From: a virus
Strand: one strand, 5' to 3'
Virus record (IMG/VR): IMGVR_UViG_3300048925_000615
Coordinates: 1 to 32,230 of that record
DNA: 32,230 nt
The notes below the pieces were generated by a model, which did no database searches, had not been told where the DNA came from, and saw nothing but the letters and a program-made list of their open reading frames with translations. The position numbers and the translations under genes are program-made. The stretch's first letter is position 1. Each line of letters starts with the position of its first letter. Shown one piece after another: positions 7,305 through 15,451 of the stretch.

Positions 7305-7333
7305 AACATGATGCGGAAAATGAACCGCGTCAA
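7305..7333 (-). promoter_or_regulatory. Leftward early promoter (PL-like)
   Basis: On the minus strand, TTGACG (7328-7333) and CATGTT (7305-7310) are separated by 17 bp, a sigma-70-like pair. The spacer is almost entirely the repressor operator at 7311-7330, so repressor binding would block RNA polymerase. Transcription would begin near 7298 and leave a leader of about 24 nt carrying GAGG before the ATG at 7274. Confidence 0.6.
7311..7330. promoter_or_regulatory. Repressor operator, left site 1
   Basis: The repeat ATGCGG-AAAATGAA-CCGCGT shares its arms and A-rich spacer with four other sites near the repressor gene. It lies between the -35 and -10 boxes of the leftward promoter. Confidence 0.72.
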
Positions 7334-7339
7334 TACAGA

Positions 7340-7359
7340 ATGCGGAAAATAAAACGCAC
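7340..7359. promoter_or_regulatory. Repressor operator, left site 2
   Basis: The repeat ATGCGG-AAAATAAA-ACGCAC is a 20-bp member of the operator family, its centre 29 bp from left site 1 and just upstream of the leftward -35 box. One arm has C to A relative to the consensus. Confidence 0.68.
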
Positions 7360-7439: not shown

Positions 7440-8138
7440 TCAGCTGCGCAAGGCCTTGCCCGACTTGATCTGCCTCAGCACCGATCTTCTCGCCTCGTTG
7501 GCGATCGAACGCACCTGCGCTGCAGGGATCGCTGCAATGACCTCGCTGAACAATACGACCGGGACATCCATCATCTCCGGGGCGTTGTAGCTCATGAGAT
7601 GATAGAAGCCGGGCTTGGTCCCTTGAAGAACACGCTTCAGATAGCGCGCGCCCTCTACCGTTTCGACAGCCGCGGTATGCCCGATTACGCCCCCAGGGTG
7701 ATCAGCAAAGCGCGAGCAGACAATTACATCGCCCGAATCGTACTTGGGCCACATGCTTTCGCCTTGAATCTGAAAGGCCAGCGCATCGTCAGGCAGCGGA
7801 AACGGCACCTGAACCTCAAAGAGCGGCTCATGATGGGCGACTTGAGCGCTCGACGTGTCAATCGATCCCCCGGCGCCGATGTATCCGTACACGCCGACGA
7901 CACTGAGCTCCGGCGCCGCGCCGGGGCCATCGCCGATTCCGTAGGCTAGCCACTCGGGCGATACGGAAAGCGCCCCCGCGAGCTTCCGAGTTGTGTCGAC
8001 GGTCGGCGAAGAATCAGGATTCCGCATGATACCTCTGATCGCATCCGGGCTCATGCCGGCGGCGAGCGATGCGGCGCGCGGCGTCAGTCCCTTTGCCAGA
8101 AGCGCCTGCTCAATCCTGTCAACAATGGTCTTTCCCAT
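7440..8138 (-). CDS. Prophage repressor: XRE-like helix-turn-helix plus S24 (LexA-like) peptidase
   Basis: A 232-residue CI/C2-type repressor that should maintain lysogeny. Residues ~7-65 form an XRE-like helix-turn-helix (TPRAASLAAGMSPDAIRG). Residues ~120-172 form the S24 self-cleavage domain, with Ser128 in QGESMWP and Lys168 in RYLKRV; Ala89-Gly90 in YIGAGG is the likely autocleavage bond. RecA-stimulated cleavage after DNA damage would induce the prophage; this is family knowledge. The ATG at 8138 is chosen because the domain starts there and an operator abuts it directly upstream; no Shine-Dalgarno is visible, so the message may be leaderless. Lower GC than the surrounding genes. It is flanked by left and right operator clusters. 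Confidence 0.93.
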   Translation of the reverse strand: MGKTIVDRIEQALLAKGLTPRAASLAAGMSPDAIRGIMRNPDSSPTVDTTRKLAGALSVSPEWLAYGIGDGPGAAPELSVVGVYGYIGAGGSIDTSSAQVAHHEPLFEVQVPFPLPDDALAFQIQGESMWPKYDSGDVIVCSRFADHPGGVIGHTAAVETVEGARYLKRVLQGTKPGFYHLMSYNAPEMMDVPVVLFSEVIAAIPAAQVRSIANEARRSVLRQIKSGKALRS

Positions 8139-8158
8139 GTGCGGAATTCTATCCGCAC
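8139..8158. promoter_or_regulatory. Repressor operator, right site 1 (abuts the repressor start codon)
   Basis: GTGCGG-AATTCTAT-CCGCAC has perfect six-base arms. It ends at the base before the repressor ATG (read on the minus strand) and contains a TAGAAT -10-like hexamer (minus strand, 8146-8151). Binding here would allow the repressor to control its own synthesis. Confidence 0.7.
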
Positions 8159-8172
8159 GCGAAAAGGCAAGT

Positions 8173-8192
8173 GAGCGGAAAATAAACCGTTG
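8173..8192. promoter_or_regulatory. Repressor operator, right site 2
   Basis: GAGCGG-AAAATAAA-CCGTTG is a less symmetric member of the operator family with the same A-rich spacer. It overlaps the -35 box of the rightward promoter and lies 24 bp centre-to-centre from right site 3. Confidence 0.62.
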
Positions 8193-8219
8193 ACAGATGC
8201 GGAAAATGAACCGCATCTA
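8190..8219 (+). promoter_or_regulatory. Rightward early promoter (PR-like)
   Basis: A consensus TTGACA (8190-8195) is followed 18 bp later by CATCTA (8214-8219), a modest -10 box. Right operator site 3 fills the spacer, mirroring the leftward promoter. Transcription would start near 8225-8227, directly at the ATG at 8228, giving a nearly leaderless message. Confidence 0.58.
8197..8216. promoter_or_regulatory. Repressor operator, right site 3
   Basis: ATGCGG-AAAATGAA-CCGCAT has perfect six-base arms, and its first 18 bases match left site 1. It lies between the -35 and -10 boxes of the rightward promoter. Confidence 0.72.
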
Positions 8220-8227
8220 TCGCCGCT

Positions 8228-8500
8228 ATGGCGAACCAAATCGAACAGCTGCTGACCGTCGTGGATGCGTACTGCGCAGCGCGCGGAATCTCCGAGGCTC
8301 GCGCCTCGACGCTGATCTTCAATGGCGGCGGCCGCATCAAGCAGCTGCGCGATGGGCGCGACATCGGGGTGCTGACTTCGCTGAGCGCACTGCGGTGGCT
8401 GTCCGACAATTGGCCGGAGGAGGCCGAATGGCCTTCTGACATTCCACGACCTTATTCGATCTCAAAAGCCGCCGAGGCCGTCTCGGCTTGCCACCCCTAA
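8228..8500 (+). CDS. Cro-position small DNA-binding-type protein
   Basis: A 90-residue protein encoded immediately downstream of the rightward operators, divergent from the repressor. The segment ISEARASTLIFNGGGRIKQLRDGRDIG (about residues 20-47) has helix-turn-helix character, followed by LSALRWLSDNWPEEAEWP. Similar small proteins occur beside repressors in alphaproteobacterial prophages (recollection). Position and size suggest a Cro-type lytic regulator competing for the five operators. No ribosome-binding site precedes the ATG at 8228, and the inferred start of transcription falls within three bases of it, so it may be translated leaderless. Confidence 0.72.
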   Translation: MANQIEQLLTVVDAYCAARGISEARASTLIFNGGGRIKQLRDGRDIGVLTSLSALRWLSDNWPEEAEWPSDIPRPYSISKAAEAVSACHP

Positions 8501-8560: not shown

Positions 8561-9028
8561 ATGCGGGATGCCCCGTTCTATCGTCTCAAGGCCGGCGCCG
8601 CCGATCTCGTCTCCCGCTGCGGCGGGCAGGCGCGGGCCGGCGAGATCATCGGCGTGTCGCAGCAGCAGATCAGCCGCATCTGCCAACGCGACGACGGCGC
8701 GATGTTCAGCATCCGCGCCAAGCTCGACCTCGAAAAGGAATGCGGCGCGCCCCTCCTGACCGCCGTCGAGGCCGATCTGCTCGGCTTCCGGCTGGAGCGG
8801 ACGGCGCCGCGCGCCCCGGAAGCCGCGCGGGGCACGCCGTTCTCGGCCCATGCGCAGGTGATGATCGAGGCGGCGGACGTCGCCCGCGTCTTCGCGCATG
8901 CCGTCGATGACGGGGTCTATTCGGCCACCGACGCCGTGAACTGCGGCAAGGCCCTGTCCGACCTCAAGCAGTCGATCGAGGCCTTCGAGCGGATCAACGC
9001 CAAGATTCAGGCCGGGAGCGCGACGTGA
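8561..9028 (+). CDS. Early regulator-like protein with N-terminal helix-turn-helix
   Basis: A 155-residue protein. Its N-terminal 60 residues (AADLVSRCGGQARAGEIIGVSQQQISRICQRDD) form a likely helix-turn-helix with recognition helix around VSQQQISRI. The C-terminal half is helical with no named domain. The position, second gene after the switch, is that of CII-like or early activator proteins in lambdoid phages, but no homology to CII is visible. The ATG at 8561 has GAGG eight bases upstream. Its stop overlaps a GTG start at 9025 as GTGA. Confidence 0.78.
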   Translation: MRDAPFYRLKAGAADLVSRCGGQARAGEIIGVSQQQISRICQRDDGAMFSIRAKLDLEKECGAPLLTAVEADLLGFRLERTAPRAPEAARGTPFSAHAQVMIEAADVARVFAHAVDDGVYSATDAVNCGKALSDLKQSIEAFERINAKIQAGSAT

Positions 9029-12598: not shown

Positions 12599-13474
12599 AT
12601 GACTGCGCAGCCGTTCCATCTTGAGCCGACGCCACCGCCGCGGACGCGCAGGCGGCGTGGCGGCTGGGCATGGGGAGCCGTCGACGCGGCGAAGCTTCGT
12701 GTTCTATCGCTTGGGGCTGGCGTCCAGTCGACGACGCTCGCACTGATGGCCGCCCATGGCGAAATTGGCCCCATTCCCGACCTGGCTATCGTCGCCGACA
12801 TGGAGGAGCTCGACGCCACCGAGGAAAATCTCCGTTTCCTTGCGTCTGGGAACGTCCTGCCGTTCCCCGTCGTGCGCGTCAACAAGGGGCGCCTCCTGTC
12901 TGACGATCTTCGCGCGCGCTGTGTGCCAGGCAATCGCGGCGTCTCGATCCCGTTCTTTACGTCCAAGGGGCAGGCGCAGCGACAATGTACACGCGAGTTC
13001 AAAGTAGAAGTCGTGGAGGCGGAAATCCGGCGGCAGCTGGGCTTCCGGCCGCGCCAGCGCATCCCGACCGCCTCTGCTGAGGTCTGGCTCGGGTATTCGA
13101 CGGACGAAGCAGTGCGAGCGGGTGCAGCCTTTTCGCCCTGGGTGGTCCATCGCTTCCCGCTCCTTGAGCGCGGAATGTCGTTTCAAGACTGCGTCGCATG
13201 GCTGCGGCGGCACGGATATCCTGTTCCGCAGCGGAGCAAATGCGTGTTCTGTCCGTTCCGCACAAACGCTGAGTGGCGGTGGATGCGGGAGCATGAGCCT
13301 GCGAGCTGGGCGAAGGCTGTCGCTGCCGATGAGGCGGTGCGGGCGCATGGCCAGTTACGGGTTCAGGGCTTTCTGCATCCGAGCCTGAAGCCGCTCCGTG
13401 CTGCCGACCTGTCAACTGCTGAAGAGCGCGGCCAAGGCACGCTGATGATCTGCGAAGCGGGGTGCGGTCTGTGA
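12599..13474 (+). CDS. PP-loop ATPase / PAPS reductase-like adenine nucleotide alpha-hydrolase
   Basis: A 291-residue protein with the PP-loop ATP-binding motif SLGAGVQST (37-45), typical of PAPS reductases, tRNA thiolation enzymes and DndC-type sulfur enzymes. Five cysteines fall in the second half: C130 in QCTREFK, CVFC (C215/C218) and CEAGC (C285/C289). These could hold an iron-sulfur cluster. The start to residue ~30 is a basic, proline-rich extension. Phage proteins of this group are usually labelled PAPS reductase but their reaction is unproven; base or tRNA modification by adenylation is as likely as sulfate reduction. It stands next to the methyltransferase apart from the inserted membrane gene pair, so a role in phage nucleic-acid modification is plausible (inference). 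Confidence 0.85.
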   Translation: MTAQPFHLEPTPPPRTRRRRGGWAWGAVDAAKLRVLSLGAGVQSTTLALMAAHGEIGPIPDLAIVADMEELDATEENLRFLASGNVLPFPVVRVNKGRLLSDDLRARCVPGNRGVSIPFFTSKGQAQRQCTREFKVEVVEAEIRRQLGFRPRQRIPTASAEVWLGYSTDEAVRAGAAFSPWVVHRFPLLERGMSFQDCVAWLRRHGYPVPQRSKCVFCPFRTNAEWRWMREHEPASWAKAVAADEAVRAHGQLRVQGFLHPSLKPLRAADLSTAEERGQGTLMICEAGCGL

Positions 13475-14646
13475 GCGCTGCCCTTCTCGGCCTCGCCCTC
13501 AAGGCCAAGCTGCATTCGCAGACGCGGAAGATGGTGCTGATCAAGCTCGTCGACTGCTGCCACGAGGACGGCACGCGGATCTATCCCTCGCTCGCGACCA
13601 TCGCAGAGGATGCCGAATGCTCGGTGCCGACCGCGCGCCGCGTGATGCAGACCTTCGTGCGCGTCGGACTGCTGCGCCTGGTCAAGGAAGGCGGCTCCGG
13701 CGCCAAGTCCACCAACCATTACGAGATGGATGTCGACCTGCTGGCTCGACTGCGGCGGCGCGAACTCTGGCCCGCGCTAGAGGCGGCGGCGGCGCATCAG
13801 CCCTTGCCCGATTGCGACGATGACGAGGCGCCCGACCATGCATCGGACGCCGGGGCCGGCCGGGTCCAGTCGGGTTCGTCATGCGAAAATAAGGGTATCA
13901 CGGTGGAAGGGTATCACGGTGATAGCCTTCCAAATCAGGCGGAAGGGTATCATCAGGGTGATACCCAACCCCTTAGTTATAACCCTTACTCTGAGAGAGA
14001 GGGTGCGCAGGGGCGCGAAGGCACGCCAGCGATCGAGCGCGAGCCCGAGCGCAAGCCGACCGCGACGCTCGACGACTTCCGCAAGGCGTATCCGCATGCC
14101 GGTGCCGACGATCAGGCGGCGCTGGCCTCGGCCTGGGAGGCCGTGCCCTTCGCCGAGCGGCAGGCGGCCATCGACGGCATTCCGGGCTTCGTCTCCGAAC
14201 GCAAGGCGGCGGGCTTCTCCAGCCGGCTTTCCGGCCCGAAATACCTCTCCGGCTTCAACTGGCGCCATGTGCCGAAGCAGGCCGCCGAACGGGCGGCACG
14301 GCAGGCGGCGGGCGCCTTCTGCGAGGTCAAGGGCTGGTCGAAGGATTGGTGGCTCGTGCTGCTGGCGCGCATCGCCGCCGGGCAGCGCGTCGGGTTCGTG
14401 GTGCAGCAGGCCGATGCCGGCAAGTCGCTCTCGGTCGCGGCCAGCGAGCTTGCGGCGGCAACCAAGCGGGTTGGCGAGCTGCGTAGCTTCCTCTGCGACG
14501 GGCCGGAGATCGACGCATGGCGGCCTTGGCTGGCGGCTCGCGGCGCCCGCATCCCGGTGTTCGAGGGGAATTTCCGCGTGTTTTTGCCGGGTGAGAGGCC
14601 GCCGGAAGGGCGCAAGGATGAAGGGGATGATCATGTCCGGTTCTGA
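13471..14646 (+). CDS. Replication initiator-like protein (lambda O-like plan) with in-gene iterons
   Basis: A 391-residue protein. Residues ~15-90 are a winged-helix domain (YPSLATIAEDAECSVPTARRVMQTFVRVGLLRLV), as in phage replication initiators. A hydrophilic, low-complexity linker (about 100-200) separates it from a conserved C-terminal region with DDFRKAYP and KYLSGFNWRHV. The linker DNA carries repeated GGGTATCA elements (13891-13966), the same plan as lambda O, whose gene contains the phage origin. Start chosen: GTG at 13471, overlapping the previous TGA as GTGA; GTG at 13462 is also in frame. I infer that the N-domain binds the iterons and the C-domain recruits host or phage replication proteins. 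No helicase or loader gene is recognised nearby. Confidence 0.85.
   Translation: MSAALLGLALKAKLHSQTRKMVLIKLVDCCHEDGTRIYPSLATIAEDAECSVPTARRVMQTFVRVGLLRLVKEGGSGAKSTNHYEMDVDLLARLRRRELWPALEAAAAHQPLPDCDDDEAPDHASDAGAGRVQSGSSCENKGITVEGYHGDSLPNQAEGYHQGDTQPLSYNPYSEREGAQGREGTPAIEREPERKPTATLDDFRKAYPHAGADDQAALASAWEAVPFAERQAAIDGIPGFVSERKAAGFSSRLSGPKYLSGFNWRHVPKQAAERAARQAAGAFCEVKGWSKDWWLVLLARIAAGQRVGFVVQQADAGKSLSVAASELAAATKRVGELRSFLCDGPEIDAWRPWLAARGARIPVFEGNFRVFLPGERPPEGRKDEGDDHVRF
13891..13987 (+). other. Candidate phage replication origin: iteron cluster inside the replication gene
   Basis: Five copies of an 8-bp element lie within 74 bp: direct GGGTATCA at 13893, 13909 and 13945, and inverted copies at 13920-13927 (TGATAGCC, one mismatch) and 13959-13966 (TGATACCC). 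The first two direct copies are 16 bp apart. The second copy is in a 27-bp near-perfect palindrome (13905-13931, arms GGAAGGGTATCAC and GTGATAGCCTTCC). The fifth pairs with the third across a 6-bp gap. An AT-richer stretch (13967-13987, around CTTAGTTATAAC) follows and could be the unwinding element. Confidence 0.65.
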
Positions 14647-15451
14647 GGCGGCGAAGGTTCTGGCACGGCAGGACAAGCTGTCCCGGGCCGAAGCCCGCAG
14701 GCTGCGGCAGGAGCGGCAGGAAGCACGCGAGGCGGCAGCGCGAGCGAAGATCGAGGCCGAGCAGCAGCGGCTCGTCACCGAGGCGAAGGCGGCGCGGGAG
14801 CGGGGCGAGATCCCGAACGCGGCTCCCTCCAAGAAATGGCAACCCAAGGGCAAGGCTGGCAAGGCGCCCGTGCTGGGCGAGCGATTGGTCGACGATCCTC
14901 TCGCGATCGAACCCGGCACGAAGATGAAGGCCATCGTCAATCTCGCCGAACATCCACTCGAGATGATGCTGGCGCGGCGGCGCCTCGACCAGCCGCTCTA
15001 TGAAGCCGGCGTGCGCTTCCGGCGCATCTACGAAGCAGCGGCGATCGGGCCGGGCCGGGGCATCGATCCGGCTCATATCAAGGTCGATGGCGGCAAGGCC
15101 GGCGATCCGCTGTCGGACAGCGTGGTGCATGCCCAGTTCGAGCTGAAGCGGCTGGCCCAGCAGCTCGGCCCGATCGGCGAGCGCATCGTCTCGGCCGTAG
15201 CCGGGCGCGGCATGACGATATCGGAGCTGGCCGAGCGGTGGCCGGGACCGGAGGCGACGCGCCAGAAGTTGGACTATCTGGGCATGCGGTTCCGGGAGGC
15301 ACTCGACTTCCTCGCCGGCGAGGTCTGGGGCGCGAAGGGGCCGGAGCGCGGGCGCATCGTCGGCATGCGGGCCGATGTCGTGATCTACGACGAGCAGGCG
15401 GTCGCGGTGGCGAACCAATCCTATCTGCGCAAGCGTGGGATAAGCCTGTAG
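14618..15451 (+). CDS. Hypothetical protein ending the early operon; candidate late-gene regulator
   Basis: A 277-residue protein. Residues ~15-65 are a highly charged coiled coil (Arg/Glu/Ala-rich). The C-terminal ~120 residues (VRFRRIYEAAA ... LGPIGERIVSAVAGRGMTISELAERW ... LGMRFREALDFLAG) resemble DUF6456-type regions and include a plausible helix-turn-helix (TISELAERW...ATRQKLDYL). The ATG at 14618 has GGAAGGG seven bases upstream; ATGs at 14627 and 14633 are also possible (AAGGGG before 14633). It overlaps the replication gene by 29 nt. As last early gene, just before a terminator-like hairpin and the late operon, it holds the position of lambda Q; a late activator or antiterminator role is inferred from position only. 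Confidence 0.75.
   Translation: MKGMIMSGSEAAKVLARQDKLSRAEARRLRQERQEAREAAARAKIEAEQQRLVTEAKAARERGEIPNAAPSKKWQPKGKAGKAPVLGERLVDDPLAIEPGTKMKAIVNLAEHPLEMMLARRRLDQPLYEAGVRFRRIYEAAAIGPGRGIDPAHIKVDGGKAGDPLSDSVVHAQFELKRLAQQLGPIGERIVSAVAGRGMTISELAERWPGPEATRQKLDYLGMRFREALDFLAGEVWGAKGPERGRIVGMRADVVIYDEQAVAVANQSYLRKRGISL

Follow-up and report, generated by a model that had tools for sequence, protein, structure and literature searches.

The DNA analysed here, referred to as the window, is the whole of a temperate-phage record of 32,230 nt (IMGVR_UViG_3300048925_000615). Its early region follows the order cI-cro-cII-O, matching that of lambda, and the terminase, portal and capsid genes come after a DUF6456-like gene. 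The genes and protein domains concerned are as follows.

1-1311: integrase
7443-8216, minus strand: CI-like repressor
8228-8497: gene in the cro position, unnamed PHROG family
8561-9025: CII-like activator
13471-14646, plus strand: O-like replication initiator gene (HTH_36; phrog_1032 and phrog_391, 'replication initiation O-like')
13474-13749, plus strand: N-terminal winged-helix domain (predicted model, mostly confident over residues 1-110)
about 13624-13665, plus strand: predicted recognition helix (predicted model)
13807-14052, plus strand: linker, predicted to be disordered (pLDDT below 50, residues 112-193), bearing the candidate origin
14050-14643, plus strand: C-terminal domain, well predicted structure
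14621-15451, plus strand: downstream gene in the place of lambda P / DnaB, DUF6456-like, below the Pfam cut-off

The initiator gene starts with GTG at 13471, in agreement with the conserved MSAALL start of its relatives, within a reading frame open from 13462. The N-terminal 210 residues of the product were covered by significant O-like profile matches (phrog_1032, E 7e-11; phrog_391, E 1e-10). In Pfam, HTH_36 alone passed its cut-off for the window protein, and the families listed for 14 members, at E values of 1 or below, included none specific to lambda O. Structure comparison of the N-terminal domain gave generic winged-helix matches only. The linker is of low complexity, with EGYH and GDT peptide repeats. 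The C-terminal domain, presumably the domain in contact with the replisome, gave no clear match in a fold search against solved structures (best E-value 2), which does not in itself indicate a new fold.

The DUF6456-like protein is possibly a replication partner or a late regulator; a homologue appears to come after the initiator in the relative L042 as well. No gene for a DnaB-type helicase or a recognised loader was identified in the part of the window's ORFs scanned. Directly 5' of the initiator lies a PAPS (phosphoadenosine phosphosulfate) reductase-like gene (12599-13474). Further upstream, the ORF at 9670-11049 matches the ParB-like partition family in its N-terminal part and MT-A70 methyltransferase in its C-terminal part. 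Near relatives of the initiator were found in viral contigs and in the genomes of Bosea lathyri and Bosea lupini, indicating that the host is probably a Bosea-like bacterium of the Hyphomicrobiales; the phage has relatives among the prophages of Bosea, which are soil bacteria. A search of plasmids gave no relative of the initiator.

Within the coding sequence of the initiator itself, between the N- and C-terminal domains, lie five GGGTATCA half-sites on both strands of 13893-13966, four exact and one with a single mismatch.

13893-13900, plus strand: half-site 1, GGGTATCA, left arm of dyad i1
13909-13916, plus strand: half-site 2, GGGTATCA, left arm of dyad i2
13920-13927, minus strand: half-site 3, right arm of dyad i2; GGCTATCA, with a single mismatch that is absent from the relative L006
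13945-13952, plus strand: half-site 4, GGGTATCA, left arm of dyad i3
13959-13966, minus strand: half-site 5, GGGTATCA, right arm of dyad i3, adjoining the AT-richer flank
13904-13932, no strand assigned: near-palindrome of 29 bp around i2 (arms 13904-13917 and 13919-13932, 93% complementary)

A preliminary description of this DNA had reported three direct and two inverted copies, one of them mismatched, over 74 bp in the linker of a winged-helix replication gene. Both the repeats and their setting, a predicted disordered linker of an O-like initiator, were confirmed, while the near-palindrome, described as 27 bp long, measured 29 bp. The five half-sites read naturally as three dyads, i1 (13893-13911), i2 (13909-13927) and i3 (13945-13966); the right arm of i1 is degenerate in the window, and i1 is a complete dyad in relatives. 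The half-sites fall in all three reading frames. The predicted placement of the array in a disordered linker between two folded domains may give this stretch more freedom to evolve into a binding site.

No further exact copy of GGGTATCA exists in the 32 kb window outside the array. When one mismatch is allowed, the whole-window count (11 observed, 10.1 by chance) is at chance level, indicating that the clustering is what is significant. Among viral contigs outside the initiator family, the 16-mer GGGTATCACGGTGATA was found as single copies only, and the DnaA-box pattern TTWTNCACA is absent from the window. Direct repeats resembling CI operators, GCGGAAAAT and ATGCGGAAAAT, were observed at either end of the gene for the CI-like repressor (7311-7350 and 8175-8207; GCGGAAAAT at 7311, 7340, 8175 and 8199) and are probable repressor operators. 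The iterons differ from them in sequence, as the preliminary description had held.

The significance of the cluster was evaluated with a base-composition-weighted score of exact direct and inverted matches of at least 7 bases within 100 bp. A simpler count of the best 8-mer (one mismatch, both strands) suffered from noise, given the GC-rich composition of the gene (the observed 5 was attained by 28 of 300 codon shuffles), and was therefore replaced by this score. The array scored 57.0, against a mean of 6.8 and a maximum of 33.3 in protein-preserving codon shuffles (0/1000 reaching the observed value), and about four times as high as the second-best repeat cluster of the whole window, which scored 14. 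As controls, lambda O scored 40, a value reached by none of 200 shuffles, with the peak window over the annotated iterons, and P22 gene 18 scored 34 (maximum 16 in 100 shuffles).

The array occupies an unchanged position in the linker of the window and of 14 homologues (L002-L008, L028, L031, L032, L036-L038 and L041), and is absent from no close homologue. In most of these, the half-sites are offset from the first site by 0, 11 or 16, 27 or 32-33, 52-55 and 66-69, the outer three being nearly fixed. The best 8-mer found de novo was GGGTATCA in 8 genes and of the GGGTGACA type in 9; in L038 its register is shifted by one base (AGGGTGAC). Among 17 genes, including L065 and L066, that are related to each other and carry only two iteron classes, differing at half-site positions 5-6, the half-site class tracked the identity of the N-terminal domain (partial Mantel r 0.58, permutation p 0.0002), in accordance with an expectation set beforehand. 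C-domain identity, given the N-domain, had no predictive value in the same 17 genes (r -0.24). Two natural swaps were observed. The window and L002 share 96% identity in the C-domain and 59% in the N-domain, and their half-sites differ; the window and L008 share 99% in the N-domain and 51% in the C-domain, and the half-site is identical. By inspection, the recognition helix reads xTARR in the AT class and xxVQR, xxVRR or HAQR in the GA class. The co-variation suggests that iteron specificity is set by the N-terminal domain.

Constraint at the DNA level was examined for same-residue pairs among genes sharing the N-type. The fraction of identical codons was 0.92 for the iterons and 0.90 for the flank; the values for the N- and C-domains were 0.72 and 0.62, so that synonymous conservation peaks exactly at the array.

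Downstream of the last half-site lies the AT-richer flank noted in the preliminary description.

13967-13992, plus strand: candidate unwinding flank, degenerate tandem AACC(C)TTA units (AACC at 13967 and 13981)
13993-14003, plus strand: conserved purine tract GAGAGAGAGGG

The enrichment is modest, the 30-mer at 13973 being 60% AT in a genome of 34% AT (top 0.45% of the window), and the AT-rich region is conserved in relatives. In the close family, the DNA 3' of the last iteron holds AACCCCTYA and AACCC-type units, followed by GAGAGAGAGGG or a near variant; the copy in the window is degenerate, with two AACC 14 bp apart.

Based on these observations, the array probably represents a phage replication origin built like that of lambda, with the N-domain, probably as a dimer, on three dyads, the flank as the site of opening and the C-domain recruiting helicase. 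We assign this reading a probability of about 0.88. As far as sequence comparison can tell, it is strongly supported by the presence of the array in all close relatives, by the tracking of the N-domain and by the conservation of synonymous codons. The lambda O-like architecture claimed earlier, with an origin in the initiator linker, likewise finds support in these features and in the cI-cro-cII-O order. GC skew adds weak support: a switch had been predicted near 13.9 kb, and the skew right of the array exceeded that on the left in 8/8 phages, but the cumulative minimum was located 0.2-3.8 kb upstream.

Instead of an origin, the array could be an operator for autoregulation, through which the initiator or another early regulator controls transcription through the gene. 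Palindromic sites bound by winged-helix proteins can act as operators, and many of the structural matches of the N-domain are transcription factors. The sites lie, however, within the coding sequence, about 420 bp from its start, and no gene diverges from them; the CI operator-like repeats differ in sequence and are located at the cI-cro boundary, and a downstream flank that is AT-richer and conserved is a trait of origins. We consider this reading improbable; autoregulation alongside origin function is possible. It is very unlikely that the repeats act in mRNA, as hairpins for the control of translation or attenuation. Although the fold of the RNA strand is unusually stable (-50.7 kcal/mol, z -5.0) and the dyads keep pairing via double changes, the same covariation is predicted by DNA dyads, and the minimum-energy RNA topology varies between relatives even though the half-sites are kept. 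No Rfam match was found at 13000-15000, and hairpins leave both the identity of the direct repeats and the tracking of the N-domain unexplained. That the repeats are a by-product of the low-complexity linker peptide with its EGYH and GDT repeats is hardly credible, since codon shuffles keeping the peptide never reach the observed score, the half-sites encode GYH, GDT or VIP depending on the frame, and synonymous conservation is highest at the array.

Under the origin reading, the winged-helix N-domain, probably dimeric, would bind the three palindromic iterons in the DNA of its own linker. Once several dimers are bound, they would wrap the DNA around themselves and open the AT-richer stretch immediately 3' of the array (13967-14003). 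Single strands are most likely presented there by the purine tract together with the (G)AACC repeats, and the C-terminal domain would then recruit the helicase machinery. The site would also be crossed by early transcription running rightward from the cro-cII operon, which may aid opening, as in lambda. Binding, dimerisation, opening, helicase recruitment and transcriptional activation are all proposed by analogy.

The closest parallel is the lambda origin in gene O (iterons 39034-39118 within O, 38686-39585), which likewise has an initiator gene after cro and cII, an iteron array in mid-gene, dyad iterons and a downstream AT-rich flank. The N-domain of lambda O is also a winged helix. In contrast, the iteron is of the GGGTATCA type in the window and ATCCCTCAAAACGAGGGA in lambda, the lambda flank is an A-rich tract of the ACAAAAGA type where that of the window carries AACC repeats, and no gene beside the initiator of the window was recognised as lambda P-like. 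Iterons and an AT-rich tract in the middle of O are common to lambda and Stx phages (PMC7466680), and O dimers bind the lambda iterons, with opening of the adjacent AT-rich tract (PMC5043065, PMC7466680). The gene 18 array of P22 was detected by the same method as that of the window, but the repeats of P22 and L differ from those of the window, and in P22 gene 18 is followed by the DnaB-type helicase gene 12. Each of P22 and L has its own, different repeats within gene 18, those of L having been called its likely origin (PMC8022706). Of the earlier claim of a new origin sequence, novelty of the iteron sequence therefore stands and novelty of the principle does not: the principle is already known from lambda, P22 and L, to which the window adds a further example with a new iteron. 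Initiators of the HTH_36 type (PHROG 391 / 1032), such as those of Mesorhizobium phage vB_MseS-P1, Pseudomonas phage PP9W2, Pectobacterium phage ZF40 and mEp460, share the winged-helix start, the repeat array in the linker and the downstream AACC repeats, and differ in iteron sequence; in ZF40 and PP9W2 an annotated DnaB-like helicase gene follows the initiator. Iteron plasmids of the RK2, F and P1 type also place an iteron array beside an A+T-rich opening region. As a rule, however, plasmid iterons lie outside the rep gene. They bind monomeric initiators, in contrast to the O dimers on lambda iterons (PMC5043065).

The arrangement is widespread among initiator genes. In 40 of 45 genes from viral contigs and Alphaproteobacteria (L041 and L057 being the same sequence, and three of the five failures short truncated frames), the top repeat cluster exceeded all 60 codon shuffles; for Pseudomonadota genomes and named phages, 37 of 45 genes exceeded all 25 shuffles. 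In the first of these sets, the top clusters were located nearly always just after the winged helix, L095 being exceptional in position. The iteron sequences vary widely, including GGGTGTCA, GGGGTTCA, CTGCCGA and GGGTGCA types.

Beside these unrelated iterons, tandem (G)AACC units, strand-specific and about every 12 bp, recur in the initiator genes of Pseudomonadota phages, seen 3' of the arrays in L065-L094 and L098-L166 and often followed by GAGAGA and CG-rich DNA. Across a non-redundant set of 55 genes, the 40 bp immediately following the array contained 1.82 AACC per gene, as compared with 0.06-0.38 in other 40-bp bins, and 0.05 GGTT per gene, with an AT fraction of 0.51 against about 0.38 elsewhere. 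AACC pairs spaced 10-13 bp apart numbered 56 in these genes (11.5 expected; maximum 16 in 40 codon shuffles). In both the first and the second 40-bp bin 3' of the array, GAGAGA averaged 0.15 copies per gene; it was nearly absent elsewhere. The motif, first noticed in the Hyphomicrobiales set, was retested in a largely independent phylum-wide set of 31 genes, giving 74 AACC (shuffle mean 39, maximum 53 of 500 shuffles) and 37 spaced pairs (mean 9.3, maximum 18), with 6 GGTT. Coding for E-P accounts for part of the AACC, one frame holding 41 of the 74, yet most genes use more than one frame. The lambda and P22 flanks are without AACC and have ACAAAAGACA-like repeats there instead. In literature searches that reached a minority of the subscription journals, no paper naming the repeat was found among those listed for GAACC repeat strings, and nothing relevant among those listed for iterons in rhizobial or Bosea phages.

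Tentatively, and at slightly less than even odds, we propose that two codes exist in phage origins of the winged-helix class: lineage-specific iterons read by the N-domain, and a shared strand-specific (G)AACC element (about 12 bp spacing, often followed by GAGAGA) as the actual site of unwinding or single-strand loading, a phage counterpart of the bacterial DnaA-trio. What may be new is this shared element, with its putative role in unwinding.

The array provides a specific candidate origin in one group of temperate phages of the Bosea type. The relatives supply natural pairs of DNA-binding domain and cognate site two bases apart (GGGTATCA and GGGTGACA), and the window and L002 represent a natural domain swap on an almost identical C-domain. 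The survey also points to a shared downstream element without description in the literature searched, and suggests that the origins of many uncharacterised phages may be located from the initiator gene alone.
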